Source of the DNA: Kordiimonadales bacterium IMCC3096
GTDB taxonomy: Bacteria > Pseudomonadota > Alphaproteobacteria > Minwuiales > Minwuiaceae
Direction: 5' to 3'
Assembly (NCBI GenBank): GCA_016865035.1
Contig: CP018227.1
Location: forward strand, 3,439,501 to 3,503,500
DNA length: 64,000 nucleotides
The first letter of the stretch is position 1; each line of letters begins with the position of its first letter. Shown one piece after another: positions 3,541 through 23,190 of the stretch. The translations under genes were made by a program, and so were the position numbers. The notes under the pieces are model-generated. The model saw only the letters and a list, made by a program, of their open reading frames with translations, was not told the origin of the DNA and searched no databases.

Positions 3541-3611
3541 TCTGCCGGTTCATGGCGAACTGCTTGTGGATTGCGACTCGAGCCAAAACTGCTGCGGTTA
3601 GCTTGGATTGG

Positions 3612-3640
3612 TTGAGTTTTGATCAATTGAGAATTATAGA
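3612..3640 (+). promoter_or_regulatory. Putative promoter of the nucleotidyltransferase gene
   Basis: TTGAGT (3612-3617) and TATAGA (3635-3640) are separated by 17 bases in a markedly AT-rich stretch, and lie 32 bases upstream of the nucleotidyltransferase start codon. Each hexamer matches the sigma-70 consensus at four of six positions. Confidence 0.4.
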
Positions 3641-3672
3641 AATGAAGAAATTTTTGAATCTAGGTGGCAAAT

Positions 3673-3919
3673 ATGACCAATGATTTCAGAAATATCGCTA
3701 GCATACTTGCCGATTGGTCGCACCCACACTCAGGTATTGTTATATACTTGTTTGGCAGTAGAGTTCGCGGGGATCACCGTTCTGGCAGCGATGTCGATGT
3801 ACTTTTTGACTTTGCGAGCCCGAGCGACTCGTCGACTGCTTGGCTGACGGAGATGGAAGCAGAAGACTACGCTTCGTTGAAGATTCAATTGCCTGGGCCG
3901 TTGGAACTATTGGAGCGCA
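3673..3919 (+). pseudogene. Minimal nucleotidyltransferase (MNT) gene, 5' part, interrupted by an IS element
   Basis: The frame from ATG 3673 (AGGTGG five bases upstream) encodes the N-terminal part of a small MNT-fold nucleotidyltransferase. The catalytic signature is clear: a Gly-Ser pair then GSDVDVLF (LFGSRVRGDHRSGSDVDVLF, residues about 26-45). Such proteins are often antitoxins or partners of HEPN toxins, but no HEPN gene is present here. From 3920 the sequence is the left inverted repeat of an IS5-family element, so the last 16 codons of the open frame (to the stop at 3969) belong to the IS. The missing C-terminus appears to resume after the IS at 5228. Base composition is AT-richer than the neighbours. 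Confidence 0.7.
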
Positions 3920-3940
3920 GGAGCCAGCTGGACACCCGCA
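3920..3940 (+). repeat. IS left inverted repeat
   Basis: This 21-base stretch is the reverse complement of 5207-5227 with one mismatch (fifth base, C against T). The similarity continues loosely inwards for about 18 more bases with a small gap, as expected for IS ends. Confidence 0.85.
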
Positions 3941-4002
3941 AAATCCTGGCCGATTTTGCGGCGGTCTGATTCACTACCTCCCTGATGGTACGGGAGGATC
4001 GG

Positions 4003-5082
4003 ATGCGTCAGCGGGGACTGTTTGGACTATCGGAGCATCTGGAAGCATTGAGCCGGGACGGCGATCCACTGGAGGTGCTTGATGCGACGGTCGATTTCGA
4101 GCATTTCCGGCGCTGGCTGGTTGAAGGGTTGGGCTATGGCGATGGTCGCAAAGGCGGTCGCCCGCCATTTGATCCGGTATCGATGTTCAAGGTTCTGATC
4201 CTGCAGGCGCAGCACAATCTGAGCGACGCGCGGATGGAGTTCATGATCCGGGACCGTCTGTCCTGGATGCGCTTTCTCGGCTTCGATCTCGGTGCGCCGA
4301 CGCCGGATGAGAACACCATCCGGCTGTTCCGCAACAAGTTGACAGAGACCGGCACGCTGCAGCGGGTGATGAAGGCGTTTGACTGGCAACTGCACAAGAA
4401 GGGCTATATCCCGATGTCAGGCCAGATCGTGGATGCGAGCCTGGTCCCGGCACCGAAGCAGCGCAATACCGACCCCGAGAAGGAGGCGGTGAAGGCTGGC
4501 CGCACTGCGTCCGAGATCTGGCCCGACGAACCGAACAGGGCGGCGCAGAAGGATACCGACGCGCGCTGGACGCTGAAGGTGGGCGGCAAGGTCCGCACCC
4601 GGCCCGACGGCGTGCCCTTGCCGATGATCGCGTTGCCGGTCTTCGGCTACAAGTCGCACATCAGCATCGACCGGCGGTTCGGCTTCATCCGCGGCCAGGC
4701 CGTGACCTCGGCCTCGGCGCCGGATGGCCGACAGTTACAGACCGTGGTCTGCACAGACAACACGTCCGGCGAGGTCTGGGCCGACAGCGCCTACCGCTCG
4801 CGGCGCAACGAGAAGTGGCTGGCAAGCCGGATGCTGGTCAGCCGCATCCACCGGCGCAAGCCCGCAGGCAAGCCGATGCCGAAGGCCACGGCCCGCGCCA
4901 ATGCGAAGAAGTCCTCGATCCGCGCCCGCGTCGAGCATGTCTTCGCCCACCAGAAGAACCGCTACGGCCTGTTCATCCGGACCATCGGGATCAAGCGGGC
5001 CGAAGCCAAACTGACCCTGGCCAACCTCGCCTACAACTTCGACCGTCTGATCTTCCATGAACGCAGAGCCGCCACAGGATGA
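4003..5082 (+). CDS. IS5-family transposase (DDE type)
   Basis: The 359-residue protein is a complete DDE transposase of the IS5 group. The N-terminal part has the usual DUF772-like region (VSMFKVLILQAQHNLSD, DENTIRLFRNKL). The first acidic residue is in IVDASLVPAPKQ, the second in VWADSAYRS, and the glutamate in RVEHVFAHQKNRYG followed by a typical LTLANLAYNFDRL tail. ATG 4003 is chosen over an in-frame ATG at 3985 because GGGAGG lies five bases before it. The reading frame is intact and both terminal repeats are present, so the element may still be active. Confidence 0.9.
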   Translation: MRQRGLFGLSEHLEALSRDGDPLEVLDATVDFEHFRRWLVEGLGYGDGRKGGRPPFDPVSMFKVLILQAQHNLSDARMEFMIRDRLSWMRFLGFDLGAPTPDENTIRLFRNKLTETGTLQRVMKAFDWQLHKKGYIPMSGQIVDASLVPAPKQRNTDPEKEAVKAGRTASEIWPDEPNRAAQKDTDARWTLKVGGKVRTRPDGVPLPMIALPVFGYKSHISIDRRFGFIRGQAVTSASAPDGRQLQTVVCTDNTSGEVWADSAYRSRRNEKWLASRMLVSRIHRRKPAGKPMPKATARANAKKSSIRARVEHVFAHQKNRYGLFIRTIGIKRAEAKLTLANLAYNFDRLIFHERRAATG

Positions 5083-5134
5083 GTCCGTCCAGAACGCCGG
5101 TCACCCACCAGCCCGACGCCAGATCAGGCCGTCG

Positions 5135-5154
5135 GAACCGGAAACCACCGGTTC
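5135..5154. repeat. Small perfect inverted repeat inside the IS 3' end
   Basis: GAACCGG (5135-5141) and CCGGTTC (5148-5154) are perfect complements around six bases, between the transposase stop and the right terminal repeat. It may form a short RNA hairpin at the end of the transposase message. No T-run follows. Confidence 0.35.
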
Positions 5155-5206
5155 AGAACATCCGGGTGCAGGCCGTGTCTTCCACTCGGCGAAATCATCG
5201 GGTTAA

Positions 5207-5227
5207 TGCGGGTGTCCAGCTAGCTCC
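5207..5227 (-). repeat. IS right inverted repeat
   Basis: This 21-base stretch is the inverted partner of 3920-3940, with one mismatch. Directly outside it the open frame continues into a sequence that reads like the C-terminus of the interrupted nucleotidyltransferase. Confidence 0.85.
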
Positions 5228-5309
5228 AAAGGTAAGGCAAGCTTCCAAGAATTCCGTTCACCGAGACCGCAACGTCATATGTGTTTGGCTACCTTCGGCG
5301 CGCGGCTAG
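5228..5309 (+). pseudogene. Nucleotidyltransferase gene, 3' remnant beyond the IS
   Basis: The frame that runs out of the right IS end reads KVRQASKNSVHRDRNVICVW and stops at TAG 5307-5309. A short terminal strand of the type NVICVW is what I would expect for the last strand of small MNT-type nucleotidyltransferases like the one cut at 3919. Joining the two parts would give a protein of about 110 residues, a normal length for this family. The assignment rests on position and on family memory, not on an alignment. Confidence 0.5.
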
Positions 5310-5348
5310 CGAGGGCAGCTTCGCTGTATACCTAGTATTGCGGTGGGC

Positions 5349-5453
5349 ATGTGGCTGCCGTTCCTGAACACGTATCGAACCATGTGCGTTGCGCCTGAGC
5401 CGGATTTCAGACGCTTGCTTGAAGATATCCGAGAACTTCATATCGCTGCCTGA
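5349..5453 (+). CDS. Small open frame or 3' gene remnant, function unknown
   Basis: A 34-codon frame (MWLPFLNTYRTMCVAPEPDF and 14 more residues ending IAA) lies between the interrupted nucleotidyltransferase and the regulator gene. Its composition resembles a real amphipathic protein C-terminus (DFRRLLEDIRELHIAA) more than random sequence, but there is no clear ribosome site. It could be the tail of a larger gene lost when the element or the IS rearranged this region. I do not recognise it. Confidence 0.25.
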   Translation: MWLPFLNTYRTMCVAPEPDFRRLLEDIRELHIAA

Positions 5454-5470
5454 TGGCATGTCGACCATCG

Positions 5471-5522
5471 TTTAGTGGATAGTTGACATCTGTGCCGAAT
5501 CAAGTGTAGAGTGACCGCTAAA
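5471..5522 (+). promoter_or_regulatory. Promoter and imperfect palindrome upstream of the XRE regulator
   Basis: TTGACA (5483-5488) is a perfect -35 hexamer, followed after 18 bases by TAGAGT (5507-5512). The promoter is flanked by the inverted pair TTTAGTGG (5471-5478) and CCGCTAAA (5515-5522), which match at seven of eight positions. Such bracketing is common at operators bound by the adjacent XRE repressor of mobile elements. Confidence 0.55.
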
Positions 5523-5543
5523 CAGGAAACGGAGACAGGAGCC

Positions 5544-5897
5544 ATGACCAGCGGGAGGGAGAAGTTCGGGGCGTTTATTCGCCGCGAGCGTGAGGCGCGG
5601 GAGATCGGCCTGCGCGAGATGGCCAAGAAGATCGGGGTGAGCCCGACCTATATGTCGAAAGTGGAGCGCGACGAGTTCGCGCCGCCGACCGAGGACAAGG
5701 TTCGGTCGATCGCGCAGATCCTCGAATGCGATCCGGACGAATTGCTGGCGATGGCGGGGCGTGTGCCCTCCGACCTCGCCGATATCATCAAGCGGCATCC
5801 TGTCGAAATGTCGGCGCTGCTGCGAACCGCCAACGGTCTGAGCGCCGAGGAACTGGTCCGGCTTTCTCGGGAGGCAGGAAAGGCCAAGGGCAAGTGA
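5544..5897 (+). CDS. XRE-family helix-turn-helix regulator of the integrated element
   Basis: The 117-residue protein has an N-terminal lambda-repressor-like HTH (FIRREREAREIGLREMAKKI, then GVSPTYMSKVERDEFAPPTE, residues about 9-50) and a short C-terminal tail. The start ATG 5544 is preferred over GTG 5511 because GGAGACAGGAG lies just upstream. It is followed by an ImmA-type peptidase gene after 44 bases. That pairing is well known from ImmR/ImmA and IrrE-type switches in integrative elements, where the peptidase cleaves the repressor. It probably represses its own promoter and the element's excision or replication genes, which is inference. Confidence 0.85.
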   Translation: MTSGREKFGAFIRREREAREIGLREMAKKIGVSPTYMSKVERDEFAPPTEDKVRSIAQILECDPDELLAMAGRVPSDLADIIKRHPVEMSALLRTANGLSAEELVRLSREAGKAKGK

Positions 5898-5941
5898 AGC
5901 CACGGGGGCATGGCCCCACTGATGCAGATGAAGGATGACGG

Positions 5942-6709
5942 ATGAGCCGATTTGTTCCCTATCTTGCCGAAGAGGCTATCGAGCGCGACGCCGCTTCCCT
6001 GATCGGCGAGTATGAGCGCGCTCGGGGCGTGACGATCGAGCCGCCCATCCCCGTTGAGGACATCGTGGAAAAGTACCTCAAGCTGCGGATCGAGTTTGAC
6101 GACATGCACGCGCGCCACAATGTTCCACGCCCTCCGAACGGCCAGCCCGACATCCTTGGCGCAATCTACGGCGACGGCAGCATATTCATCGACGAAAGCC
6201 TCGATCCTGAGGAGAACCCCTCGCGGGAGGGCCGCTATCGCTTCACGCTGGCCCACGAGGGCGGCGGGCACTGGCGGCTGCATCAGCACCTGATCGTGCA
6301 GGATACGGCGCAGACGTCTTTCCTTGATGCCGTGAGCGAACCCAAGTTCATCTGTCGGTCGAGCGAGGCAAAGGAGCGAGTGGAATGGCAGGCCGATTTC
6401 TATGCCTCCTGCCTGCTGATGCCGCACAAGATGGTCTTTGCCGCATGGGACGAGTTCTTTCCTGACCGGAAGCAGCGGGTCCTCCAACCGGAAACGCCAG
6501 TTGCGCACTCCTTCGTCGAGATTCCGCGCATCCATGCTTCCGTTGGCGATTTCGATATTTCTGAAACAGAAGACGAGGCGCTGGAACGGTTCTGCAAGCC
6601 GCTGGCCGAGCGTTTCGTTGTTTCCCCAATCGCCATGCGTATCCGGCTGGAAAAGCTTGGCTTGCTTCATCGTATGGTGCCGCTCCAGCGGCTTCTGTCC
6701 GGCAGGTAA
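5942..6709 (+). CDS. ImmA/IrrE-family metallopeptidase
   Basis: The 255-residue protein has the zinc site HEGGGH in TLAHEGGGHWRLH (residues about 100-112), a variant of the usual HExxH, and the downstream family motif EWQADFYASCLLMP (about 149-162). Members of this family are cytosolic proteases that inactivate a partner XRE repressor after a stress or quorum signal. The partner here is most likely the HTH protein encoded directly upstream. The N-terminal region (EDIVEKYLKLRIEFDD) is also family-typical. Confidence 0.88.
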   Translation: MSRFVPYLAEEAIERDAASLIGEYERARGVTIEPPIPVEDIVEKYLKLRIEFDDMHARHNVPRPPNGQPDILGAIYGDGSIFIDESLDPEENPSREGRYRFTLAHEGGGHWRLHQHLIVQDTAQTSFLDAVSEPKFICRSSEAKERVEWQADFYASCLLMPHKMVFAAWDEFFPDRKQRVLQPETPVAHSFVEIPRIHASVGDFDISETEDEALERFCKPLAERFVVSPIAMRIRLEKLGLLHRMVPLQRLLSGR

Positions 6710-6739
6710 TCCGGCCCCTTTTTTTGAGGAGACTGTAAA

Positions 6740-7006
6740 GTGTCAAGTGGACAGGCGAAATACGGCGCAGCGGCGCGGGAGGACGGGTTCGAGACCCGAG
6801 ACTTCTATCTCGCCTGCTTCTTGCGCTGCACCGGATACGAACTGCTCGATCTGCGCGCCGAGGGACGGCGCAAGGTATTCGTCTTCCGCGATCGGCCGTG
6901 CCGGCGCGATGACGTGCTGTCGTTCTACGGCGACGGGGCGACGGTGCCGCCCCTCGCGTTCTCCACCACCATCAAGGACATGAAGGCGCTGCTGCACAAT
7001 GCTTGA
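6740..7006 (+). CDS. DUF5659-like small protein
   Basis: The 88-residue protein begins at GTG 6740, with GAGGAG eight bases upstream. Its core, ETRDFYLACFLRCTGYELLD, followed by a KVFVFRD strand and a C-terminal YGDGATVPPLAFSTTIKDMK, matches the pattern of DUF5659 proteins found on mobile elements. No enzymatic motif is visible. Its place right after the XRE/ImmA pair suggests an accessory role in the element, but the function is unknown. Confidence 0.6.
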   Translation: MSSGQAKYGAAAREDGFETRDFYLACFLRCTGYELLDLRAEGRRKVFVFRDRPCRRDDVLSFYGDGATVPPLAFSTTIKDMKALLHNA

Positions 7007-7220
7007 GAAAACTCCCCATACCAACGACGGCCTGTCCAGCGGCCCTCAACTGCGCCAGGCGCTCGACCAGATCGGCCAGATCGTTCTCGACGGTCTACGC
7101 CACGGTCATTTCCGCTGCGCCATTTCCAGCGCAATCGGAAAAAACAATAAGCGCGACCTCGTGATCGAGGCGGGCAAGTCCCACAAGTTCACGATCCCCG
7201 AGGACGAGCTGCCGCGCTGA
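6999..7220 (+). CDS. Hypothetical mobile-element protein
   Basis: A 73-residue protein whose ATG overlaps the end of the preceding gene by eight bases, indicating translational coupling. The sequence (LRQALDQIGQIVLDGLRHGH, then KNNKRDLVIEAGKSHKFTIP) looks like an alpha-beta small domain with no cysteine or catalytic motif. I do not recognise it. Tight packing with the DUF5659-like gene supports its being real. Confidence 0.55.
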   Translation: MLEKTPHTNDGLSSGPQLRQALDQIGQIVLDGLRHGHFRCAISSAIGKNNKRDLVIEAGKSHKFTIPEDELPR

Positions 7221-7345
7221 CGAGGCGCGCGAACCGGCGATCCCTGCGATTGGGACGCCGAACATGCAAATGACGACACGATCCTGCGTTATCGGTGCGA
7301 GTCCGAGGCCGGAGATCAGGGGCACGGAACGGCGAGAAGCCGACC

Positions 7346-7591
7346 GTGAGATCTTCGGTGAAAGCTGCAAACGACAATCTGAATGACGAACTGATCGCCC
7401 GGACCCGCGAGGTCTGGCAACCGCGCCTCGGGCGCGATGTGACCCGCGACGAGGCGAAGCAGATCGCCGCCAGCATGACCGGTTTCTTTGCCGTCCTGGC
7501 GGAGTGGTCGCGGGCCGATATGCCGGCCCCAGCGAATGATAACGGTGACACGGCGGCCTCTGGCGATGAGGAGGTGCGCGATGACCGCTGA
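7346..7591 (+). CDS. Hypothetical protein, small conserved mobile-element gene
   Basis: A protein of about 81 residues with the central segment IARTREVWQPRLGRDVTRDE and a downstream helix (GFFAVLAEWSRADM). Both are typical of short proteins encoded before primase genes on alphaproteobacterial elements. The start is uncertain: GTG codons at 7295, 7346 and 7358 are all in frame and none has a strong ribosome site. The end overlaps the start of the primase-like gene by 11 bases. Function is unknown; a helper of the adjacent replication proteins is a guess from context. Confidence 0.55.
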   Translation: MRSSVKAANDNLNDELIARTREVWQPRLGRDVTRDEAKQIAASMTGFFAVLAEWSRADMPAPANDNGDTAASGDEEVRDDR

Positions 7592-8471
7592 GACCATCGC
7601 CAGGGCGCTTGGCGGCCGCAAGGTCGGACAAGGCTGGACGGCGCGCTGCCCGTCCCATGACGACCGCGAGCCCAGCCTCTCCATCCGTGATGCCGATGGC
7701 AAGGTGCTCGTGCGCTGTCATGCCGGATGCGACCAGCGCGACGTCATCGCGGCCCTGAAGGAACGCGGATTGTGGGACGGCAAGGCGCATTCGTCCCTCC
7801 GGAAATCGCGTCACCGCAAGGTGTCGCCACCGCGACCCGATCCGGATCAGGCTGAGCGGAGTGCGGTGGCGCTTTCGATCTGGCACTCCGCGATTCCCGC
7901 CGAGCGCACGCCGGTCGAAGCCTATCTCGCCTCGCGCGGGCTGACCTGTTCGTTGCCACCGTCGCTTCGCTTTCATCGCGGCCTGAAACATCCCTCGGGC
8001 GGAACCTGGCCCTGCATGGTGGCGCTGGTGACCCGGGGCGCCGACAGCGCGCCGTTGGCCATCCACCGCACATTTCTTTCCCACGAGGGCCGGGGCAAGG
8101 CGCCGGTCGAACCTAAAAAGATGATGCTCGGTCCCTGTCGGGGCGGGGCGGTTCGCCTTCGCGCACCCGGCGAAGTCCTGATGATCGGCGAAGGCATCGA
8201 GACCTGTCTCGCGGCCATGCAGGCGACCGTACATCCGGCATGGGCGGCGCTGTCAACCTCCGGGCTGCGGGCGCTCGTTTTGCCCGGCAGCGTCCGCGAC
8301 GTGATCGTTCTGGCCGATGGCGACGATCCCGGCGAAGCGGCAGCGCGCGATTGCGCCCTGCGCTGGATGCGGGAGGGGCGGCGAGTGCGCATTGCCCGGC
8401 CTCCGCGTGGTCTGGACTTCAACGACGTGCTGCTCGGCGGCGCGCGCGGCATCGAGGGGGGCGCACAATGA
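7581..8471 (+). CDS. Primase-like protein with zinc finger and Toprim domain
   Basis: The 296-residue protein starts with a CHC2-type zinc-binding module (CPSHDD near residue 23 and CHAGC near 45). The C-terminal half is Toprim-like, with GEGIETCLA near residue 200 and VLADGDDPG near 238, the acidic residues expected to bind Mg. This is the layout of phage and element primases that prime replication. The start ATG 7581 has GAGGAGG upstream. Its end overlaps the next gene by four bases (ATGA), so primase and ATPase are coupled and probably act together. Confidence 0.8.
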   Translation: MTAETIARALGGRKVGQGWTARCPSHDDREPSLSIRDADGKVLVRCHAGCDQRDVIAALKERGLWDGKAHSSLRKSRHRKVSPPRPDPDQAERSAVALSIWHSAIPAERTPVEAYLASRGLTCSLPPSLRFHRGLKHPSGGTWPCMVALVTRGADSAPLAIHRTFLSHEGRGKAPVEPKKMMLGPCRGGAVRLRAPGEVLMIGEGIETCLAAMQATVHPAWAALSTSGLRALVLPGSVRDVIVLADGDDPGEAAARDCALRWMREGRRVRIARPPRGLDFNDVLLGGARGIEGGAQ

Positions 8472-10429
8472 GCGACGAGATTGACGGTGAAGACCTGAAC
8501 CCGATCCTCGACGCGATAGACTCGGCCGAGGAGATTCCCGATCCGCTTGACGGTCTGGTCGAGAAATCCGCCGAGGATCCCGGCGCGGCATTCACACCCG
8601 AGGTCCTGGAACGGCTGGTCGCCCTCAAGTCGGAGGATCGCGCGGCTTTCGAAGCCTTGCGCGCGAGGCTCAAGAAGGCTGGGTGCCGGGTGACGGCGCT
8701 CGACGAGGCCATGGCCGAGGAAAGCGGGGATGGCGGGCGCGGTCCGACGCAGGCCGACATCCTGATCGATCTCGCAGGTGCGGCCGAGCTGTTCCATTCG
8801 GCGGACGGCACCGCCCTTGCGGACATCCTGATCAACGAACATCGCGAAACCTGGCCGGTGCGCACGAAAGGCTTCCGTCGCTGGCTGGCGCGGCAGTTCT
8901 TCGAGCAGACCGGCGGCGCCCCAAGCTCGGAGGCGCTTCAATCCGCGCTCAACGTGATCGAGGCGAAAGCTCACTTCGACGGACCGGAACGGCCTGTATT
9001 CATCCGGGTGGGCGGTCTCGACGGACGGCTTTACCTCGATCTCGGAGACGAGGCCTGGCGGGCGGTGGAGATCGACGCCACCGGCTGGCGGATCATAGAC
9101 GAGCCGCCGGTTCGCTTCCGCCGCGCTGCTGGCATGCAACCCCTAGCCGTCCCGATGCCCGGCGGGTCGGTCGAGACGCTACGTGCCTTTCTGAACGTCC
9201 AGTCCGATCAGGATTTCGTCCTGGTGGTGGCTTGGGCGCTCGCTGTCCTGCGCAACAAAGGCCCTTATCCGGCGCTCGTGCTGTCGGGCGAGCAGGGTTC
9301 GGCGAAATCGACCTTCTCGGCGATCCTGCGGGCGCTGCTAGATCCCAACACCGCACCGCTGCGCGCCCTGCCGCGCGAGGACCGCGACCTGTTCATCGCC
9401 GCCAGCAACGGCCATGTCCTGGCCTTCGACAACGTGTCGGGCCTGCCAGCGTGGATTTCGGACACGCTCTGCCGATTAGCCACCGGCGGCGGCTTCGCCG
9501 TGCGCCAGCTCTACACCGACCAGGATGAGGTGCTGTTCGACGCCGCACGCCCGGTGATCCTGAACGGCATCGAGGACATCGTGACCCGGCCCGACCTGGC
9601 CGACCGCGCGGTGTTCCTTACGCTGGAGCCGATCCCAGAGGAGCGCCGCCGACCGGAGGCGGAATTGTGGGCATCTTTCGATGCGGAACGCGGGCGTATC
9701 CTCGGCGTCCTTCTCGACGCGGCGGTGGAAGGCTTGAAACGCCTTCCCGACACCCGCCTGCCCAAGCTGCCGCGTATGGCCGACTTCGCATTGTGGGCCT
9801 CGGCCTGCGAGAACGCCATCTGGCCTGCGGGCACATTCTGGGCGGCCTATTGTGGTAACCGGGACGAAGCCGTCGAGGGTGTCATAGACGCCGATCCGGT
9901 CGCCGCTGCCGCGCGCGCCGTCATGCTGGAGCGGACGGAGTGGACGGGAACCGCCTCGGACCTTCTGGGTGCCCTTGGAGAAGCGGCGGGCGAGCGAATC
10001 GCCAAATCCAAGACCTGGCCAGACAGTCCCCGCGCGCTTTCGGGACGGCTACGCCGTGCTGCCACCTTCCTGCGCAAGATCGGCATCGAGGTGTCATTCG
10101 AGCGCGAAGGCCGGGCGCGCACCCGTGTCATCCGCATCACCGCCGCAGGCGCGGAATCGGTGCCGGAACGCGGCGGGGCGCAACCGTCCGGACCGTCCGC
10201 ACCGTCCGCGCCAAGGCCGAAATCCGTTCCTGACAATGGCTTCGGGGCGCCTAACCCGCGGACGGTTGCCAACGATGCGGACGGTAGGGTGAGCGGGCCG
10301 GTCGATAGCGCCCGTGCCAACCCGCTGAAATTAAAAGACGAGACCGTTGCGGACGGTGCGGACGCAAACCGCGCTGCTCATTCCGGGCCGGACAAAATAG
10401 CAGGCACCAGCTGGAGGGCACGGCTATGA
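8468..10429 (+). CDS. P-loop ATPase, primase-associated helicase-like protein
   Basis: The 653-residue protein has a Walker A site near residue 277 (LSGEQGSAKSTFSAILRALL) and a Walker B-like strand (HVLAFDNVSGL) in which the usual DE is DN. An arginine-rich downstream region (VILNGIEDIVTRPDLADRAV) is typical of phage D5-like and superfamily 3-like ATPases found next to Toprim primases. The N-terminal 200 residues are acidic and unrecognised. The C-terminus from about residue 560 is low-complexity, rich in Pro, Ser and Ala. The likely role is as replicative helicase or loader of the element, a context inference. Confidence 0.7.
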   Translation: MSDEIDGEDLNPILDAIDSAEEIPDPLDGLVEKSAEDPGAAFTPEVLERLVALKSEDRAAFEALRARLKKAGCRVTALDEAMAEESGDGGRGPTQADILIDLAGAAELFHSADGTALADILINEHRETWPVRTKGFRRWLARQFFEQTGGAPSSEALQSALNVIEAKAHFDGPERPVFIRVGGLDGRLYLDLGDEAWRAVEIDATGWRIIDEPPVRFRRAAGMQPLAVPMPGGSVETLRAFLNVQSDQDFVLVVAWALAVLRNKGPYPALVLSGEQGSAKSTFSAILRALLDPNTAPLRALPREDRDLFIAASNGHVLAFDNVSGLPAWISDTLCRLATGGGFAVRQLYTDQDEVLFDAARPVILNGIEDIVTRPDLADRAVFLTLEPIPEERRRPEAELWASFDAERGRILGVLLDAAVEGLKRLPDTRLPKLPRMADFALWASACENAIWPAGTFWAAYCGNRDEAVEGVIDADPVAAAARAVMLERTEWTGTASDLLGALGEAAGERIAKSKTWPDSPRALSGRLRRAATFLRKIGIEVSFEREGRARTRVIRITAAGAESVPERGGAQPSGPSAPSAPRPKSVPDNGFGAPNPRTVANDADGRVSGPVDSARANPLKLKDETVADGADANRAAHSGPDKIAGTSWRARL

Positions 10430-10932
10430 GCGCCGCGAACGCCTTGCGGGCCGCCCGTGATGCCGGAATTGGTCTGCATGTGGATGGCCTCGATCTTGTT
10501 CTGGAAGCATCGGCGCCGCCGCCCGCCGCCGTCCTCGATCTGCTGACCCGCCACAAGGCGGACTTGATCGTGCTCTTGCGAGGCGACGATGACGGCTGGT
10601 CGGCCGAGGACTGGCAGGCGCATTTCGATGAGCGCGCCGGCATCGCCGAGTTTGATGGCGGGCTGCCACGCCCAGACGCAGAGACATTGGCTTTCAAATG
10701 CTGCGTCGTCGAATGGTTGAACCGCAATTTCGAGCGCTCGCCGCCCGGCCGGTGCCTCGCCTGCGGAGGTGGCGATACCGCCCATGACGCCCTGCTGCCG
10801 CACGGCGTCGAGCCAACCGGCCATGTCTGGCTGCATTCGCGCTGCTGGCCTGCATGGCATGCGGGCGGAAGGGCAGATGCGGTCATCGCACTCAAAGCCA
10901 TGGGGATTGAAGACAGGAGCAAAGGGACATGA
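10426..10932 (+). CDS. Protein with TubC-like N-terminal domain and zinc-binding cysteines
   Basis: The 168-residue protein begins with a segment that resembles the TubC docking fold often seen in element-borne proteins (ANALRAARDAGIGLHVDGLD, then APPPAAVLDLLTRHKADLI). A C-terminal cluster CLACGG plus a later Cys could bind zinc. The ATG overlaps the upstream stop codon (ATGA) and its own end overlaps the next start by four bases, so it belongs to the primase-ATPase operon. Function is unknown; DNA or protein binding is plausible. Confidence 0.6.
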   Translation: MSAANALRAARDAGIGLHVDGLDLVLEASAPPPAAVLDLLTRHKADLIVLLRGDDDGWSAEDWQAHFDERAGIAEFDGGLPRPDAETLAFKCCVVEWLNRNFERSPPGRCLACGGGDTAHDALLPHGVEPTGHVWLHSRCWPAWHAGGRADAVIALKAMGIEDRSKGT

Positions 10933-11603
10933 CGAAAAGCAAGGTTAAGAAGGCCAATGAACCCACGACCGTTGTCGCCAACGATCCGGAGGACCGGAAG
11001 GGCGCGCTCAAAACGATCGGGGGATCGCAGTCCGACCACTGGAACAACACGCTGGCCAACCAGGCGGTGCAGGCGCTGTGGGTGAAGAACTCGGACGCGC
11101 AGGAACGGGACCGCCAGTTGAGCGCTACTGTCGCCGGGCTGGCCGGAATCGGCCCGAAGGATGAACTGGAAGGCATGATGGCGGCGCAGCTGATCGCGGC
11201 TCACAACGCCGCCATGGAATGCTACCGCCGCGCCATGATCGGGGAGCAAACCTTTGAGGGCAGGCGCGAGAATCTCAACCAGGCGAACAAGCTGTCCCGC
11301 ACTTGGGCGACGTTGCTCGACGCGCTGAACAAGCATCGCGGCAAGGGCCAGCAGAAGGTGACAGTCGAGCATGTCCATGTTCACGCGGGCGGCCAGGCGG
11401 TGGTCGGGACCATCGAGCGACCGGGGGGTGGGGATCAGACCAAAATGGAGGAACAACCCCATGCAAAGCAGATTGCCCATGCACCTGAGCCCGCGCTGTG
11501 GGGCGCGGACGCGGAAAGGGACGCCGTGCCGATCGCCCGCGATGACGAACGGCCGCTGCCGGATGCACGGGGGAAAGTCTCCAGGCGCGCCGACCGGGAA
11601 TGA
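10929..11603 (+). CDS. Hypothetical mobile-element protein with helical core
   Basis: A 224-residue protein with a lysine-rich N-terminus and a long helical central part (DELEGMMAAQLIAAHNAAME, then RRENLNQANKLSRTWATLLD), followed by HVHVHAGGQAVVG. Comparable proteins sit next to HGG-motif proteins in prophage-like islands. The C-terminal 48 residues are encoded by DNA that also encodes the next gene in another frame. Both frames look coding, so the overlap appears genuine. No function can be assigned. Confidence 0.65.
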   Translation: MTKSKVKKANEPTTVVANDPEDRKGALKTIGGSQSDHWNNTLANQAVQALWVKNSDAQERDRQLSATVAGLAGIGPKDELEGMMAAQLIAAHNAAMECYRRAMIGEQTFEGRRENLNQANKLSRTWATLLDALNKHRGKGQQKVTVEHVHVHAGGQAVVGTIERPGGGDQTKMEEQPHAKQIAHAPEPALWGADAERDAVPIARDDERPLPDARGKVSRRADRE

Positions 11604-11712
11604 CAATGCGCGCAAGCATGGCCTCTACACTGCGGACGCCATATCCGAGCGACGAGAGCTGGCGGTGCTCCTGCGATCGATGCGCGGCATCATCGAAGAG
11701 GTGGAGGGATAG
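11461..11712 (+). CDS. Small HGG-motif protein
   Basis: An 83-residue protein starting at ATG 11461, with TGGAGGA upstream. It carries the conserved pattern CGARTRKGTPCRSPAMTNGR, then MHGGKSPGAPTGNDNARKHG, seen in many small phage- and island-encoded proteins. The two cysteines and basic residues suggest nucleic-acid binding. It overlaps the end of the preceding gene by 143 bases in a different frame. Function is not established for this group. Confidence 0.7.
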   Translation: MQSRLPMHLSPRCGARTRKGTPCRSPAMTNGRCRMHGGKSPGAPTGNDNARKHGLYTADAISERRELAVLLRSMRGIIEEVEG

Positions 11713-12018
11713 GGCATCGGTCCTCGGGTGCTCCTCACGGTTCCTCGCGGAGGATTCCGAATGCGGGTAGTCCAGGCGCAAGGCCGCTACAGCGTGGCGG
11801 CGGAGATTGCCTAAACTCAACCACGCCCTGAGGAAATCGGCGGTTCCTTCCTGGCGACATTCCTATGCTGGCGGGCGAAGCGCGTGACATCGCCAGCGAC
11901 TGGCTTCCTTTTTTGGGAATCCACCAGAATCCGGAATCCAGCCTGTCCACGCTGGACGATCTCGGTTGATTGCACTGCAATCAGCGCCTAATCTTACACG
12001 AAGCCGATGGAGGGCATC
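11713..12018. other. Non-coding spacer before the toxin-antitoxin operon
   Basis: About 306 bases with no convincing coding frame. It holds a perfect 17-base palindrome near its right end (11967-11983) that probably serves the toxin-antitoxin operon. The rest shows no RNA gene or repeat that I can support. It separates the replication-type genes from the cargo genes, so it is a natural module border. Confidence 0.6.
11967..11983. promoter_or_regulatory. Palindromic operator of the toxin-antitoxin operon
   Basis: TGATTGCA-C-TGCAATCA is a perfect 8-1-8 palindrome 35 bases before the antitoxin start codon. FitA/VapB-type ribbon-helix-helix antitoxins bind as dimers to such inverted repeats and repress their own operon together with the toxin. 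The site and distance fit this use. Confidence 0.6.
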
Positions 12019-12261
12019 ATGGCCAGCATCACGATTCGAAATCTCGACGACACGTTGAAGCGCAGTCTGCGCATACGCGCGGCCGAGCACGGCCGCTCAA
12101 TGGAAGAGGAGGCGCGGGAAATCCTGCGCCAGGCAGTCGGCAGACGGGCACCGCCCGAAAACCTTGGTGAAGCCATTCATCGCCGCTTTGCAGCCCTGGG
12201 CGGAGTGGACCTCGATCTGCCGCCCCGCGAGCCGATGCCCGAGCCCCCGCGCTTCGATTGA
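12019..12261 (+). CDS. FitA/VapB-type antitoxin (ribbon-helix-helix)
   Basis: The 80-residue protein opens with a classical ribbon-helix-helix (ASITIRNLDDTLKRSLRIRA, then AAEHGRSMEEEAREILRQAV), the DNA-binding part of FitA-type antitoxins. The C-terminal tail (PREPMPEPPRF) is the sort of extended segment that enters the toxin's active site. ATG 12019 has GGAGG upstream. The PIN toxin gene begins right at its stop. Autoregulation through the palindrome at 11967-11983 is likely. Antitoxin action by binding the PIN protein is known for the family. Confidence 0.85.
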   Translation: MASITIRNLDDTLKRSLRIRAAEHGRSMEEEAREILRQAVGRRAPPENLGEAIHRRFAALGGVDLDLPPREPMPEPPRFD

Positions 12262-12272
12262 TGCAGGCAGCC

Positions 12273-12704
12273 ATGATCCTGATCGACACCAATGTCATCT
12301 CCGAGCTTATGCGGTCGAAACCCGCCCCGGCCGTGCTGGACTGGTTCGGCCATCAAGACGCCGCCGCCCTTCATCTCAGCGCGGTGGGGGAGGCCGAGTT
12401 GCGGCGTGGTGCGGTGATCCTGCCGGAGGGCAAGCGCCGCGAGCGCCTGATTGCAGAGATCGACGCCATGGTCGGCGAAGACTTCGCGGGACGGGTGCTG
12501 CCGTTCGACAGCGCCGCGGCAAAAGCCTTCTCCGACATCTTCGCCGACCGCCGCGCCGCGGGTCGGCCGATCAGCTTTCCTGACTGCCAGATTGCGGCCA
12601 TAGCCCGCGCCTGCGGTGCTGCCATGGCAACCCGGAACGTCGGCGATTTCGCGGGCTGCGGTGTCGAGGTGATCGATCCATGGCAGCATCCGGAGGGCGG
12701 CTGA
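12273..12704 (+). CDS. FitB/VapC-type PIN-domain toxin
   Basis: The 143-residue protein is a complete PIN-domain ribonuclease: MILIDTNVISELMR at the start with the first Asp, the E in LSAVGEAELRRG, the later Asp pair near FPDCQIAAIARA, and the conserved ATRNVGDFAGCGVEVIDPW ending. Such toxins cleave RNA and stop growth when the antitoxin is lost, which stabilises mobile DNA. ATG 12273 is taken as start; an in-frame ATG at 12261 overlaps the antitoxin stop and is also possible. It lies between the spacer and the restriction operon. Confidence 0.88.
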   Translation: MILIDTNVISELMRSKPAPAVLDWFGHQDAAALHLSAVGEAELRRGAVILPEGKRRERLIAEIDAMVGEDFAGRVLPFDSAAAKAFSDIFADRRAAGRPISFPDCQIAAIARACGAAMATRNVGDFAGCGVEVIDPWQHPEGG

Positions 12705-12709
12705 ACGAC

Positions 12710-15169
12710 ATGGACAAGCGAAGCCTCACCGAACGCGACATCTGCACCAAGTTCATCCTGCCGGCCGTCAAACGCGCCGGCTGGGACGAGATGGTGCAAG
12801 TTCGGGAGGAGGTCTATTTCACCAAGGGCCGCATCATCGTGCGCGGTAAGCTGGTGACGCGCGGCAAGGCGAAGAAGGCCGACTTCGTTCTCTACTACAA
12901 GCCGAACATTCCGATCGCGCTGATCGAGGCGAAGGATAATTCCCACAGTGTCGGTGACGGCATGCAGCAGGCGCTCGACTATGCCGAAACGCTGAAGATC
13001 CCTTTCGTCTTCAGCTCGAACGGTGACGGATTCGTATTCCATGACCGCACCGGCGGCAGCACGCCGCGCGAGTCGAACCTCGGCCTAGACGCCTTCCCTT
13101 CACCCGCCGACCTCTGGGCGCGCTTTCGCTCCTGGAAGGGACTGGACGGCGCATCCGAGGAGATCGTTCTTCAGGACTACCACGATGACGGCAGCGGAAA
13201 GGAGCCGCGCTACTATCAGGTGAATGCCGTCAACGCGGCGATCGAGGCCATCGCCAAGGGACAGGACCGGGTTCTGCTGGTCATGGCGACCGGCACGGGC
13301 AAGACCTACACGGCATTCCAGATCATCTGGCGGCTATGGAAATCGCGGCGCTGGAACCCCGAAGGCAACAAGCGCGTCCTGTTCCTCGCCGACCGTAATG
13401 TGCTGATCGACCAGACGATGGTGAACGACTTCCGCCCCTTTGGCGCGGCAATGGCAAAGCTTTCAACCAATGCCAAGACCATCGAACGGCAGGACGGCAC
13501 GTCGGTCGACCTGACCCTGGCGCTCGACAGGAAACGGCGCATCGACACCGCCTTCGAGGTCTATCTCGGCCTCTATCAGGCGATCACCGGGCCGGAAGAG
13601 CGCCAGAAGCTGTTCAAGGAGTTCTCAAAGGACTTCTTCGATCTGATCGTGATCGACGAATGCCATCGCGGCAGCGCCGCCGAGGATTCCGCCTGGCGTG
13701 AAATCCTGGCCCATTTTTCCGGTGCGACGCAGATCGGCCTGACCGCCACGCCGAAGGAGACCGAATACGTCTCCAATACAGAATATTTCGGCGAGCCTGT
13801 ATTCACCTATTCGCTGAAGCAGGGGATCAGCGACGGATTTCTGGCTCCCTACAAAGTCATCAAAGTTCACATCGACCGTGACGTAGAAGGCTACCGGCCC
13901 GAGAAAGGCCAGCTGGACCGCGACGGCAACGAGGTCGAGGACCGCATCTACAACGCCAAGGATTTCGACCGCACGCTGGTTCTGGACGACCGCACCCTTC
14001 TGACGGCGAAGAAGATCACGGCCTTCCTCAAGGAAAGCGGCGACCGCTACCAGAAGACCATCGTGTTCTGCGTCGATCAGGAACACGCAGCCCGCATGCG
14101 TCAGGCGCTGATCAACGAGAACTCCGATCTGGTGACCGAGAACGCGCGCTACGTCATGCGCATCACCGGCAGCGACAAGGAGGGCCAGGACCAGCTTGGC
14201 AACTTCATCGACCCGGAATCGAAGTGGCCCGTCTTGGTCACGACCTCACGCCTGCTGTCCACCGGCGTTGATGCGCAGACCTGCCGCCTAATCGTGCTCG
14301 ACCGTGAAATCGGCTCGATGACCGAGTTCAAGCAGATCGTCGGGCGCGGCACCCGCGTGCACGAGGACACCAGGAAGTTCTATTTCACGCTGATCGATTT
14401 CCGTGGCGCGACCGCGCATTTTGCGGACCCGGACTTCGACGGCGATCCCGTGCAGATCTACGCGCCAGGCGCGGATGACCCGATGACGCCGCCCGACGAG
14501 GAACCAGCAACGCCCGAGGGCGAGGACGCGGTCCCGCCGACGCCGGGTGAGGACGAGACCATCGTCGATCAGCCCGGCCTGCCGCTGCCGACGGGCGATC
14601 CCGTGCGCAAGATCTACGTCGATGGCGTCGGCGCACGCATCATCGCCGAGCGCGTGGAATACCTCGACGAGAACGGCAAGCTTGTCACCGAATCCCTGCG
14701 TGACTTCACCAAGAACGCCCTCAGGAAACGCTTCGCCAGCCTCGACGAGTTTCTGAAGCGCTGGAATTCCGCCGAGCGCAAGCAGGCCATCGTTGAGGAG
14801 TTGGAGGCCGAAGGTCTGGCGCTCGATGCCATCGCTGACGAACTTGGCAAGAACCTCGATCCGTTCGACCTGATCTGCCACGTTGCCTTCGACGCCAAGC
14901 CTCTCACCCGCCGCGAGCGGGCCGAGAGCGTCAGGAAGCGCGACGTGTTCACCAAATACGGGCCGCAGGCCCGCGCCGTCCTCGATGCGCTGCTGGAAAA
15001 GTACCGCGACGAGGGCGTGCTCAATCTCGACGATGCCAACGTGCTGAAGGTAACCCCCTTCACCGAAATGGGCAGCGTTGTTCAACTCATCAAAGCGTTC
15101 GGCAACAAGGCAGGCTTCGAAAAGGCCGTCCACGAGATGCAGGTCGCGCTTTACCAGGAGACCGCCTGA
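12710..15169 (+). CDS. hsdR: Type I restriction enzyme, R (motor and nuclease) subunit
   Basis: The 819-residue protein is an EcoEI/EcoAI-like HsdR. The nuclease core lies at residues about 50-90 (KADFVLYYKPNIPIALIEAK, with Asp and the EAK pair). The superfamily 2 translocase motor follows: Walker A MATGTGKTYTA near 200, DECHRG near 315, TATP near 346, and VGRGTRVHEDT near 545. A C-terminal EcoEI-type domain follows an acidic Pro-rich linker (about 590-625). With HsdM and HsdS it would cut unmodified foreign DNA after translocation. Only three bases separate it from hsdM. Confidence 0.95.
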   Translation: MDKRSLTERDICTKFILPAVKRAGWDEMVQVREEVYFTKGRIIVRGKLVTRGKAKKADFVLYYKPNIPIALIEAKDNSHSVGDGMQQALDYAETLKIPFVFSSNGDGFVFHDRTGGSTPRESNLGLDAFPSPADLWARFRSWKGLDGASEEIVLQDYHDDGSGKEPRYYQVNAVNAAIEAIAKGQDRVLLVMATGTGKTYTAFQIIWRLWKSRRWNPEGNKRVLFLADRNVLIDQTMVNDFRPFGAAMAKLSTNAKTIERQDGTSVDLTLALDRKRRIDTAFEVYLGLYQAITGPEERQKLFKEFSKDFFDLIVIDECHRGSAAEDSAWREILAHFSGATQIGLTATPKETEYVSNTEYFGEPVFTYSLKQGISDGFLAPYKVIKVHIDRDVEGYRPEKGQLDRDGNEVEDRIYNAKDFDRTLVLDDRTLLTAKKITAFLKESGDRYQKTIVFCVDQEHAARMRQALINENSDLVTENARYVMRITGSDKEGQDQLGNFIDPESKWPVLVTTSRLLSTGVDAQTCRLIVLDREIGSMTEFKQIVGRGTRVHEDTRKFYFTLIDFRGATAHFADPDFDGDPVQIYAPGADDPMTPPDEEPATPEGEDAVPPTPGEDETIVDQPGLPLPTGDPVRKIYVDGVGARIIAERVEYLDENGKLVTESLRDFTKNALRKRFASLDEFLKRWNSAERKQAIVEELEAEGLALDAIADELGKNLDPFDLICHVAFDAKPLTRRERAESVRKRDVFTKYGPQARAVLDALLEKYRDEGVLNLDDANVLKVTPFTEMGSVVQLIKAFGNKAGFEKAVHEMQVALYQETA

Positions 15170-15172
15170 CCC

Positions 15173-16630
15173 ATGAATGTCCGCACCACAGTAAAATCCA
15201 TTCAGGACATCATGCGCCAGGACGTCGGCGTCGATGGCGATGCGCAGCGCATCAGCCAGCTCACCTGGCTGTTCTTCCTCAAGATCATCGATGATCAGGA
15301 TCAGGAACTCGAAATCACGCGCGACGACTACCACTCGCCCATCCCCGAGCGATTCCAGTGGCGGAACTGGGCGGCGGACCCCGAGGGCATCACCGGGCAG
15401 GCTATGCTCGATTTCGTCAACGACGACCTGTTCCCGGCGCTCAAGGGCCTCCAGATCACCGGCAAGCCGGGCGACCGCCGCCGCGTTGTCCGTGACGTGT
15501 TCGAGGACGCCTACAACTACATGAAATCCGGCCAGTTGCTGCGCCAGGTGGTCAACAAGATCGCGCAGATCGACTTCAACAACCTCTCCGAGCGCCAGCA
15601 CTTCGGCGAAATCTACGAACAGATCCTCAACGACCTGCAATCGGCGGGCAATGCGGGCGAATACTACACGCCCCGCGCCGTCACCGCCTTCATGGTCCAG
15701 ATGATCGACCCGCACCCCGGCGAGACGCTGTTCGACCCCGCCTGCGGCACCGGTGGCTTTCTGACCTGTTCCATCCGCCACATGGAGGAGAAATACGTCC
15801 GCACGCCCGCTCAGCGCGAGACGATGCAGGGCGCCCTCCGCGCGGTGGAGAAGAAACAGCTTCCCCACATGCTCTGCGTCACCAACATGCTGCTGCACGG
15901 CATCGAGGACCCGTCATTCGTGCGCCACGACAACACGCTGGCCCGCCCCTATATCAGTTACACCAAGTCTGACAGGGTCGACATCGTCCTCACCAACCCG
16001 CCCTTCGGCGGGCGCGAGGAGGACGGGATCGAGTCGAACTTCCCGCAGCACTTCCGCACCCGCGAGACCGCCGACCTCTTCCTCGCCCTGATCATCCGCC
16101 TGCTGAAACCCGGCGGCCGTTCGGCCGTCGTCCTGCCCGACGGCTCGCTCTTCGGCGAGGGCGTCAAGACCCGGCTCAAGGAGGCGCTGATGGAGGAATG
16201 CAACCTCCACACCATCGTGCGCCTGCCGAACTCGGTCTTCCGCCCCTACGCCTCGATCGGCACCAACCTGCTGTTCTTCGAAAAGGGCGCGCCCACGCAG
16301 GACATCTGGTTTTGGGAGCATCAGGTGCCCGAGGGGCAGAAAGCCTATTCCATGACCCGGCCCATCCGGCTGGAGCATCTGGCCGACTGCGCCGCCTGGT
16401 GGGGCGGGCCGCGCCGCGAGGGGCGAGAGGAGACCGAGCGCGCCTGGAAGGTCAGCGCGGAGGAAGTGAAGGCCGGCGGCTACAACCTCGACATCAAGAA
16501 CCCCCATACGGTGGCCGAGGATCACGGCGACCCAGAAACGCTGGTGGAGGATCTTACGAACGCCGAGGCCGAGGTCGCGGCCCTCCGCGACCAGTTGAAG
16601 GCGATCCTGTCCGAGGCGCTGACCCGATGA
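15173..16630 (+). CDS. hsdM: Type I restriction enzyme, M (adenine methyltransferase) subunit
   Basis: The 485-residue protein has the full N6-adenine methyltransferase layout: an HsdM N-terminal helical domain (residues about 5-130), the AdoMet-binding motif LFDPACGTGGFL near 188, and catalytic NPPFGG near 273. With HsdS it methylates the recognition site to protect the host, and it is needed for restriction by HsdR. The last base triplets overlap the hsdS start (ATGA), so subunit ratios are probably set by coupling. Confidence 0.95.
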   Translation: MNVRTTVKSIQDIMRQDVGVDGDAQRISQLTWLFFLKIIDDQDQELEITRDDYHSPIPERFQWRNWAADPEGITGQAMLDFVNDDLFPALKGLQITGKPGDRRRVVRDVFEDAYNYMKSGQLLRQVVNKIAQIDFNNLSERQHFGEIYEQILNDLQSAGNAGEYYTPRAVTAFMVQMIDPHPGETLFDPACGTGGFLTCSIRHMEEKYVRTPAQRETMQGALRAVEKKQLPHMLCVTNMLLHGIEDPSFVRHDNTLARPYISYTKSDRVDIVLTNPPFGGREEDGIESNFPQHFRTRETADLFLALIIRLLKPGGRSAVVLPDGSLFGEGVKTRLKEALMEECNLHTIVRLPNSVFRPYASIGTNLLFFEKGAPTQDIWFWEHQVPEGQKAYSMTRPIRLEHLADCAAWWGGPRREGREETERAWKVSAEEVKAGGYNLDIKNPHTVAEDHGDPETLVEDLTNAEAEVAALRDQLKAILSEALTR

Positions 16631-18270
16631 ACGCGGAACGGCTTCTCGCCCTTTATGAGAAGGTGGCCGAGGCGCCCGACGCGGTTCCCCGCCTGCGCCG
16701 CTTCGTGATTGATATGTCCATCGCCGGGGGATTTACTAAAGGACGCGCTTCCTGGGCCAATCAGCCAATTGAAGACTGTTTAGATTCTCTCGATGACGGC
16801 AAATCGATACATCAAGGATGGAGCCCTCGCTGTGAAACGTTTCCGGCGAGCACCGCTGAAAATTGGGGCGTCCTAAAGACCACAGCTGTCCAAGATGGCT
16901 TCTTTCTCGAAGACGAGAACAAGGAGCTTCCGGACCACCTCTCGCCGAAGGAAAATCTCGAGATTTCGGCTGGCGATGTGTTGATGACATGTGCAGGACC
17001 GAGGGCTCGGTGCGGTGTTGCATGTTGGGTTCCAAGCGTCCGGCCCCGGTTGATGATCTCCGGCAAGATGTATCGATTTAGAGCGGACCAGTCGCAAATC
17101 TTCACGGAGTATCTGGCGCTCTTTCTGCGCTCTACCGAGGCATGGACTGCAATTGATGCCATGAAGACCGGCAGCAGCGAGAGTGGTTTGAATCTGACTA
17201 AGGACCGCTTTCGCAAGCTGAAGGTCTCTTTCGGTACTTTGGATGAGCAGCGGCAGATCTTGGCGAAGGTGGAGGAGCTTATGGCGCTGCTGGACCGGCT
17301 AGAGGCGGCCCGCAATGCGCGCGAGGCCACCCGCGACCGGCTGACTGCCGCCAGCCTCGCCCGCCTGACCGCGCCCGACACGGCCTCAGAGGACTTCCCA
17401 ACGAACGCCCGCTTCGCCCTCGCCACGCTCCCCGCCCTCACCACCCGCCTCGACCAGATCAAACCCCTCCGCCAGACCATCCTCAACCTCGCCGTCCGAG
17501 GCAAACTGGTGGAACAGGACCCGAACGACGTACCGGCGTCGGAATTGCTCGACAATCTGCATTCGGAATCCGGCAAGAAGAAAAAGACGGCGCGGACTTC
17601 GCCAGCGAAGCAGGGGGCGGAAATGCCGTTTGAATGCCCTCATGGCTGGGCTTGGGCTCAGGTCCGGCAAATTCTCGCCCCCGATCGAGACATTTCATAC
17701 GGCGTCATTAAGCTAGGCCCAGAACCTACGTCTGGCGGCGTTCCGACGCTTCGGTGCAGCGATGTCAGACCCGGTTTCATTGACCTCTCGGGTGTCCGAA
17801 AAGTCCAAGAGTCCATCGAAGCCGACTACGCAAGGACGCGCCTTGAGGGCGGTGAGGTTGTTATCAACATCCGTGGGACGCTCGGTGGCGTCGCACTGGT
17901 GCCCAACGATCTCAAGGGTCACAACGTCGCTCGAGAAGTTGCTGTCATCCCCATCGCGGCTGACCTCTCCGGGCCTTTCTTGGTCTACTTGATGCTCTCG
18001 CCCTACTTTTGGGATCACATCCAAAATAACCTTCGCGGGATCGCGTATAAGGGTCTCAACTTGGGGATCTTGCGGGATCTGCCCATCCCCCTCCCACCCC
18101 TCGCCGAACAACACCGCATCGAGGCCAAGGTCGATGCCCTCATGGCCCTCTGCGACCGGCTGGAGGCCGCCCTCACCACCACAGACACCACCCGCGCCCG
18201 CCTCCTCGAAGCCCTCCTCTACGAGGCCCTGGACCCGACTGCCGACGCGGTCACGCAGGCCGCGGAATGA
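16627..18270 (+). CDS. hsdS: Type I restriction enzyme, S (specificity) subunit
   Basis: The 547-residue protein has two target recognition domains (about 40-205 and 340-500), each followed by the family's conserved helical region: LDEQRQILAKVEELMALLDR near 201 and LAEQHRIEAKVDALMALCDR near 495. A central LRQTILNLAVRGKLVEQDPN block links them. The DNA of the first recognition domain is visibly less GC-rich than the flanking conserved parts, the usual sign of domain exchange between systems. Start ATG 16627 overlaps the hsdM stop. Its own stop overlaps the Fic start. Confidence 0.93.
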   Translation: MNAERLLALYEKVAEAPDAVPRLRRFVIDMSIAGGFTKGRASWANQPIEDCLDSLDDGKSIHQGWSPRCETFPASTAENWGVLKTTAVQDGFFLEDENKELPDHLSPKENLEISAGDVLMTCAGPRARCGVACWVPSVRPRLMISGKMYRFRADQSQIFTEYLALFLRSTEAWTAIDAMKTGSSESGLNLTKDRFRKLKVSFGTLDEQRQILAKVEELMALLDRLEAARNAREATRDRLTAASLARLTAPDTASEDFPTNARFALATLPALTTRLDQIKPLRQTILNLAVRGKLVEQDPNDVPASELLDNLHSESGKKKKTARTSPAKQGAEMPFECPHGWAWAQVRQILAPDRDISYGVIKLGPEPTSGGVPTLRCSDVRPGFIDLSGVRKVQESIEADYARTRLEGGEVVINIRGTLGGVALVPNDLKGHNVAREVAVIPIAADLSGPFLVYLMLSPYFWDHIQNNLRGIAYKGLNLGILRDLPIPLPPLAEQHRIEAKVDALMALCDRLEAALTTTDTTRARLLEALLYEALDPTADAVTQAAE

Positions 18271-20675: not shown

Positions 20676-20684
20676 AACTTGAAC

Positions 20685-21548: not shown

Positions 21549-21553
21549 ACGGC

Positions 21554-23131: not shown

Positions 23132-23190
23132 GATTCGAACCTAGATTGACGGAGTCAGAGTCCGCTGTCCTACCATTAGACGATCCCCCA
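23117..23190 (-). tRNA. tRNA-Gln (anticodon CTG)
   Basis: The minus strand folds as a complete cloverleaf of 74 bases including an encoded CCA: a 7-pair acceptor stem (TGGGGGA with its complement at 23121-23127), a 4-pair D stem, a 5-pair anticodon stem, and a T arm with GGTTCGAATCC. The anticodon CTG (complement of 23156-23158) reads CAG codons. The discriminator base is G. The 3' half is overlapped by the serine recombinase gene on the other strand, while the promoter side is chromosomal, so the gene stays functional after integration. Confidence 0.95.

Follow-up and report, generated by a model that had tools for sequence, protein, structure and literature searches.

Insertion sequences of the IS5 group duplicate a YTAR target. 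For other elements of the wider IS5 family, the accessible parts of published accounts give a TA target (PMC3832669), a 6-bp target (PMC3606827) and a 3-bp target (PMC2516522). For the gene considered here, the closest described system is MntA of the HEPN-MNT (type VII) toxin-antitoxin modules. According to the accessible text of one report, MntA-type minimal nucleotidyltransferase (MNT) proteins neutralise HepT by adenylylation, MntA requires a GSX10DXD motif, and its residue D71 serves as the third metal ligand (PMC7641770). The available part of a second report describes MNT-HEPN as a widespread mobile pair (PMC2701414).

Here we describe a locus in which an IS5-family element has very probably inserted at an AGCT within an intact MNT gene, splitting the gene and duplicating the 4-bp target. 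The locus lies near the left end of a 64,000-nucleotide stretch from Kordiimonadales bacterium IMCC3096, which we call the window. Like MntA, the window MNT is a minimal nucleotidyltransferase with the GSX10DXD motif, however, it scores under the NCBIfam cut-off for MntA (about 31.3-31.6 bits for the left part, against 60), has a C-terminal tail of its own and has no HEPN partner that we could find nearby, a departure from the MNT-HEPN pair pattern. The element shares with the IS5 family a transposase that scores over the curated cut-off, a length of 1288 bp, a single transposase ORF, short terminal inverted repeats and a short target duplication. Unlike the YTAR of the IS5 group, the duplication in this element and its relatives is mostly AGCT (of the form ANNT), and since AGCT, ACCT and other tetranucleotides were found rather than YTAR, we place the element in the IS5 family but not in the IS5 group. 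In the accessible literature, a scope that excluded ISfinder and most subscription papers, we found no AGCT target duplication for the IS5 family, and such a target may already be described. One paper pairs the term "IS5 family" with AGCT, and in its accessible part AGCT is a methylation site (PMC3925955).

Results and discussion

An MNT gene lies on both sides of an IS5-family element

The coding sequence that starts at ATG 3673 is split in two by the element (Table 1). An earlier note, made from the letters of the sequence, had proposed that an MNT gene was divided in this way, and the searches agree: the N-terminal part matches Pfam NTP_transf_2 (PF01909) at 36 bits against a cut-off of 21, the element's transposase reaches 184.5 bits against NCBIfam NF033581 (transpos_IS5_4; cut-off 140), and an MNT C-terminus lies to the right. 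The GSX10DXD motif can be read in the 5′ part, and within neither half is there a further stop or frame lesion. The G+C content of the halves is 51 and 55%, that of the window 64%.

Table 1. Coordinates in the window of the split MNT gene, the element within it and the surrounding island.
Feature	Position	Strand	Evidence
MNT gene, 5′ part, from its start codon through the left target copy	3673..3929	+	PF01909; sub-threshold NCBIfam MntA; similarity to L041
Spurious end of the truncated ORF, with 13 codons running into the element and a TGA stop at 3967-3969	3928..3969	+	sequence, ORF list, alignment
Putative target duplication AGCT, left copy, 4 bp	3926..3929	.	related copies
IS5-family insertion sequence, 1288 bp	3930..5217	+	ends set by related copies whose flanks differ
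Left terminal inverted repeat, 11 bp, perfect	3930..3940	.	sequence
Predicted IS5-family transposase, 365 aa, open frame	3985..5082	+	NF033581, DDE_Tnp_1, DUF772
Right terminal inverted repeat, 11 bp, perfect	5207..5217	.	sequence
Putative target duplication AGCT, right copy, 4 bp	5218..5221	.	related copies
MNT gene, 3′ part, by homology encoding the last helix and strands and ending in TAG 5307-5309	5222..5309	+	profile match; similarity to L041
Genomic island, ~19.6 kb, at the 3′ end of tRNA-Gln, opening on its left with the MNT gene	3541..23116	.	sister genome G001
tRNA-Gln	23117-23190	minus	

The first 82 residues, used to scan genome contigs, found 84 relatives; 80 were kept, and ORFs were read at 19 of these and at two viral loci (21 in all). 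Six of the 21, L041 to L046, end in a Cys-x-(Trp or Cys)-x-Pro-Pro-Lys block, which is HRDRNVNCVWLPPKPG in both L041 and L042. The window has HRDRNVICVWLPSARG before its stop, with a tail of Cys-Val-Trp-Leu-Pro that then departs from the pattern of the six. These are the closest intact relatives: L041 from Roseomonas, L042 from a contig labelled Asaia, and L043 to L046 from other Alphaproteobacteria. Their genes are uninterrupted, encode proteins of 122-131 aa and sit in neighbourhoods that differ from the window's, and the closest of them are just 45% identical to the window MNT. No uninterrupted copy of the same allele was found. The N-terminal part matched in 9 of 191 genomes, its own included, and the eight others match weakly (best E 6.7e-5); searches of plasmids with the window's left part and with L041, and of phages with L041, returned no MNT match. 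The two MNT loci found on viral contigs (L121 and L122) do not have the C-terminal block and were set aside. The L042 protein is 94% identical to that of the Roseomonas contig, and its contig may be misbinned.

We used a predicted model of L041 (mean pLDDT 80.9, pTM 0.74, 7 sequences) for comparison with solved structures. Its best Foldseek matches are both MNT proteins, HI0073 (1no5; E 1.3e-3) and an MNT antitoxin (8xeo; E 7.4e-3), with none at or below 1e-3. Among solved structures, a sequence profile ranks 2rff and MntA itself (5yep) highest. The NCBIfam MntA scores of L041, L043, L044 and L046 are 24.7-38.4 bits, all under 60. In alignment A1, which has one row for each of the six intact relatives and one, ending at 3924, for the left part of the window MNT, Asp is absent from the strand at L041 residues 74-76, after PGPL, in all seven rows. 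On a putative mapping, this strand is the expected place of the third metal ligand. Two other identities were considered and rejected. PADLOC proposed the candidate PDC-S09 (13-42 bits), and more weakly PDC-M05A and PDC-M70A, for five of the six proteins, however, these matches fall on the general MNT motif and do not count as defence evidence. Matches to aminoglycoside nucleotidyltransferases are likewise motif matches, far under the cut-off.

No HEPN partner was recognised for the window MNT

In the window's own genome there was no match to PF01934 (HepT-like) or PF08780 (NTase_sub_bind), the two families searched, PF05168 being outside the search; in 14 control genomes PF01934 matched in 7 and PF08780 in 1. 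Judged from their ORFs alone, the neighbourhoods of L041 and L042 contain no recognisable HEPN gene, and no partner gene common to L043 through L046 was seen in the same way. The stretch that follows the MNT gene (5316-5450), which could be left over from a partner, has no plasmid match at E 0.01. Directly 3′ of the gene is an open frame of 36 aa (5343-5453), likewise with no plasmid match, which may be a remnant.

One reading of these results is that the window MNT belongs to a partnerless subfamily, with a Cys-x-Trp-x-Pro tail and no Asp in the third-ligand strand, that sits beside tRNA genes as the cargo of small insertions. If true, such proteins would act without HEPN on another substrate. 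The reading builds on the presence of different MNTs at one tRNA-Gln site in two sister species (described below) and on the position of L041 (4986-5565) and L042 (2127-2708), where a tRNA-Gly(ccc) lies ~140 bp downstream of the MNT. Against it, the nearest tRNA found at L043 and L045 is at least 1.6 kb away and there is none in the stretch examined at L044 or L046, and we consider the subfamily unlikely.

The other reading begins from MntA, whose kind neutralises HepT through adenylylation in the accessible text of PMC7641770: loss of the MNT would then expose a cognate HEPN toxin, making the insertion harmful and in need of compensation. As the genome matches neither PF01934 nor PF08780 (PF05168 being outside the search) and the ORFs beside L041 and L042 include no HEPN gene that we could recognise, we regard this as very unlikely. 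Because no HepT-like partner was found nearby or, for PF01934 and PF08780, anywhere in the genome, loss of the MNT probably freed no toxin.

The right-hand piece restores the length and frame of an intact MNT

The earlier note correctly saw a plausible MNT C-terminus beyond the element, but placed its resumption at 5228; the gene picks up again at 5222, or at 5218 with the second AGCT copy included. The left part is 45% identical to L041 over 80 residues and the right-hand part 58% identical over 26. When the halves are joined with a single AGCT, the frame is open for 114 residues to the stop at 5307-5309, and the alignment of the joined protein to L041 (score 271) runs through the junction ungapped. 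The note had suggested comparing the joined halves with intact MNT proteins, and in the relatives from Roseomonas (L041) and the Asaia-labelled contig (L042) the right-hand sequence is indeed present and the junction ungapped. A join from 3919 to 5228, as the note's positions would have it, shifts the frame, and a stop follows two codons later. Among 121 right-hand junction offsets tried against a fixed left side, the one-AGCT join scores highest (the runner-up has 264). With both sides free, joins that use element bases score up to 276, and the L041 alignment therefore supports the length and frame of the joined gene rather than the exact base of the junction.

Alignment A1 also served as the profile for a search of 385 genomes, the window's own included, which returned a second MNT piece to the right of the element. 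In the own genome it matched twice: at 3443173-3443451, corresponding to window 3673-3951, and at 3444720-3444800, corresponding to window 5220-5300, where profile positions 90-116 aligned with E 5.4e-4. A six-frame tblastn comparison of the right flank with L041-L046 found the expected frame (E 5.9e-6 for L041 and 2.2e-6 for L042), while no other frame did better than E 0.015. None of 10,000 shuffles (maximum 46) reached the score of 79 that the 27-residue right-hand piece obtains against L041. These comparisons support the reading that both pieces are halves of what would be one MNT gene, with the IS5-family element between them.

Using the L041 model, with positions mapped from the alignment, the cut falls at the start of the last helix (82-93), before the strands at 96-98 and 101-103. 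Because this helix and these strands are missing, we predict that the truncated product would be inactive.

What remains open on the left is an ORF that annotation could mistake for a complete protein. It has 98 residues if read from ATG 3673, as the earlier note stated, while the mechanical ORF list instead reports 101 aa from GTG 3664. The note counted 16 element codons at its end; we find 13 (3928-3966), the first of which contains two target bases. This tail is unlike all six relatives compared (raw local scores over the 13 residues, 17-22). The relatives thus neither end as the tail does nor lack the right-hand sequence, the two findings that the note had named as refuting its reading. 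A further ORF of 76 aa (5079-5309) begins in the element and finishes in the MNT 3′ part, and is a second likely false annotation. Recognising the 98/101-residue ORF and the 76-residue ORF for what they appear to be keeps two false proteins out of the annotation.

The 98-residue ORF does have a stop and the GSX10DXD motif, and some MNT ORFs in other genomes are ~100 aa in length, which would fit a complete and functional short MNT protein, with the similarity of 5222-5309 due to chance. We find this highly improbable, as its final 13 codons fall within the element, the right-hand piece outscores all of the shuffles, the profile search places that piece exactly at the junction, and a C-terminal block of the same kind is present in 6 of the 21 relatives whose ORFs were read.

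The element ends at 3930 and 5217 and is flanked by AGCT

The element has one match in its own genome (a single contig of 4,291,441 bases), and its terminal inverted repeat is GGACACCCGCA. Judged from the window alone, the 4 bp beside it could equally be an outer inverted repeat, because AGCT is a palindrome. Copies with other flanks are informative here. In genome G036, two copies with 84% identity to the window's element share sequence from (G)AGCTGAACACCC to GGGTGTCCAGCT and diverge beyond these points. G036 contains eight copies (L124, L128, L130, L132, L134, L136, L137 and L138), all complete and 1290 bp long, each with AGCT on both sides. An end pattern containing AGCT, and so biased toward it, matched in 4 of 385 genomes. 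We reran the pattern without AGCT, from the next base inward, in those four genomes only, and recovered the same eight copies in G036. With this AGCT-free pattern, AGCT precedes the repeat at 19 of 28 places. Four of the nine others (L187, L193, L204 and L205) were taken as chance matches, and the remaining five have AGAT, AGGT, ATCT, ACCT and AGGG, the last without a partner end.

Genome G268 has eight left-type ends (six AGCT, one AGAT and one AGGT) and, on the same strand, six right-type ends (three AGCT and one each of AGGT, AGAT and CCCT). Both of the non-AGCT left-type ends have a right-type counterpart, while the CCCT end lacks a left-type one. The ends are on separate contigs, and their pairing and assignment to left or right are presumptive. 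This agreement between rare tetranucleotides supports a 4-bp duplication. Among plasmids, five copies were examined out of 125 matching records. The flanking tetranucleotides are equal in three, ACCT/ACCT in L212 (Acidiphilium cryptum) and AGCT/AGCT in L214 and L215, and unequal in two, AGCT/AGGT in L213 and GTGT/AGCT in L216. From these related copies we infer that the 4 bp flanking the element in the window are a duplication, which gives ends and a putative 4-bp duplication for an alphaproteobacterial IS5-type element. Joining the flanks of the eight G036 copies gave longest frames of 105-154 codons, compared with 48-80 and 55-73 for the single flanks, however, these uncontrolled figures count for little, since G+C-rich DNA often contains frames of this kind. 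The joined flanks of L134 and L137 look protein-like by eye only.

The earlier note ended the MNT match at 3920, where it began the left repeat. The element instead starts at 3930, preceded by AGCT at 3926-3929, and the GGAGC outside belongs to a near-palindromic target, in which five of six bases on each side of AGCT pair. Since AGCT and the six gene bases on each side are near-palindromic, the apparent repeat grows from 11 to 21 positions (3920-3940/5207-5227, 95% complementary). Of the window's 141 AGCT sites, 3 have flanks palindromic at five or six of six positions; the shape of the target can thus be chance, and a special target rule need not be invoked. The 95% complementarity would suit an element without a duplication that spans 3920-5227 and has inverted repeats of 21 bp. 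Such an element has next to no likelihood, because outside the element the copies with other flanks have only AGCT in common and non-AGCT tetranucleotides exist, the empty site it implies is out of frame, and GGAGC outside AGCT at both ends is absent from all eight complete G036 copies. For boundary calling in general the case is a caution, as a near-palindromic target stretches the apparent inverted repeats.

Proposed insertion into a probable cargo gene of a tRNA-Gln island

We propose that the IS5-family element entered an AGCT of an intact MNT gene by transposase-catalysed staggered cutting, which would have duplicated the 4 bp and parted the N-terminal two thirds, with the GSX10DXD motif, from the last helix and strands. 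Apart from the split, the two gene halves and the frame of the transposase are open, and for this reason the insertion appears to be fairly recent. The MNT is probably partnerless cargo at the left end of the tRNA-Gln island, and its loss would thus be tolerated. With its breakpoints corrected, the split of the gene is confirmed, and we read it as an ordinary case of insertional inactivation in island cargo. Gene damage of this sort is common.

The island was delimited by comparing its site in G000, G001 and G002 only, as the other four sister genomes gave no match on the phosphoesterase side. In G001 the phosphoesterase gene and the tRNA are adjacent, with 11 bp from the stop codon to the tRNA (the aligned stretches are 20 bp apart). 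In G002 ~430 bp occupy this site, with a single, different MNT gene on the opposite strand (L003, 1357-1683). At this tRNA-Gln site the insertions of the two sister species differ, as do the MNT genes that they carry, and G001 is empty. Elsewhere in the island (12007-23131) are a FitA-RHH/PIN pair, a Fic protein, an HNH protein and, next to the tRNA, a serine recombinase, along with three type I restriction-modification-like frames (12680, 15173 and 16198), named from their translations alone.
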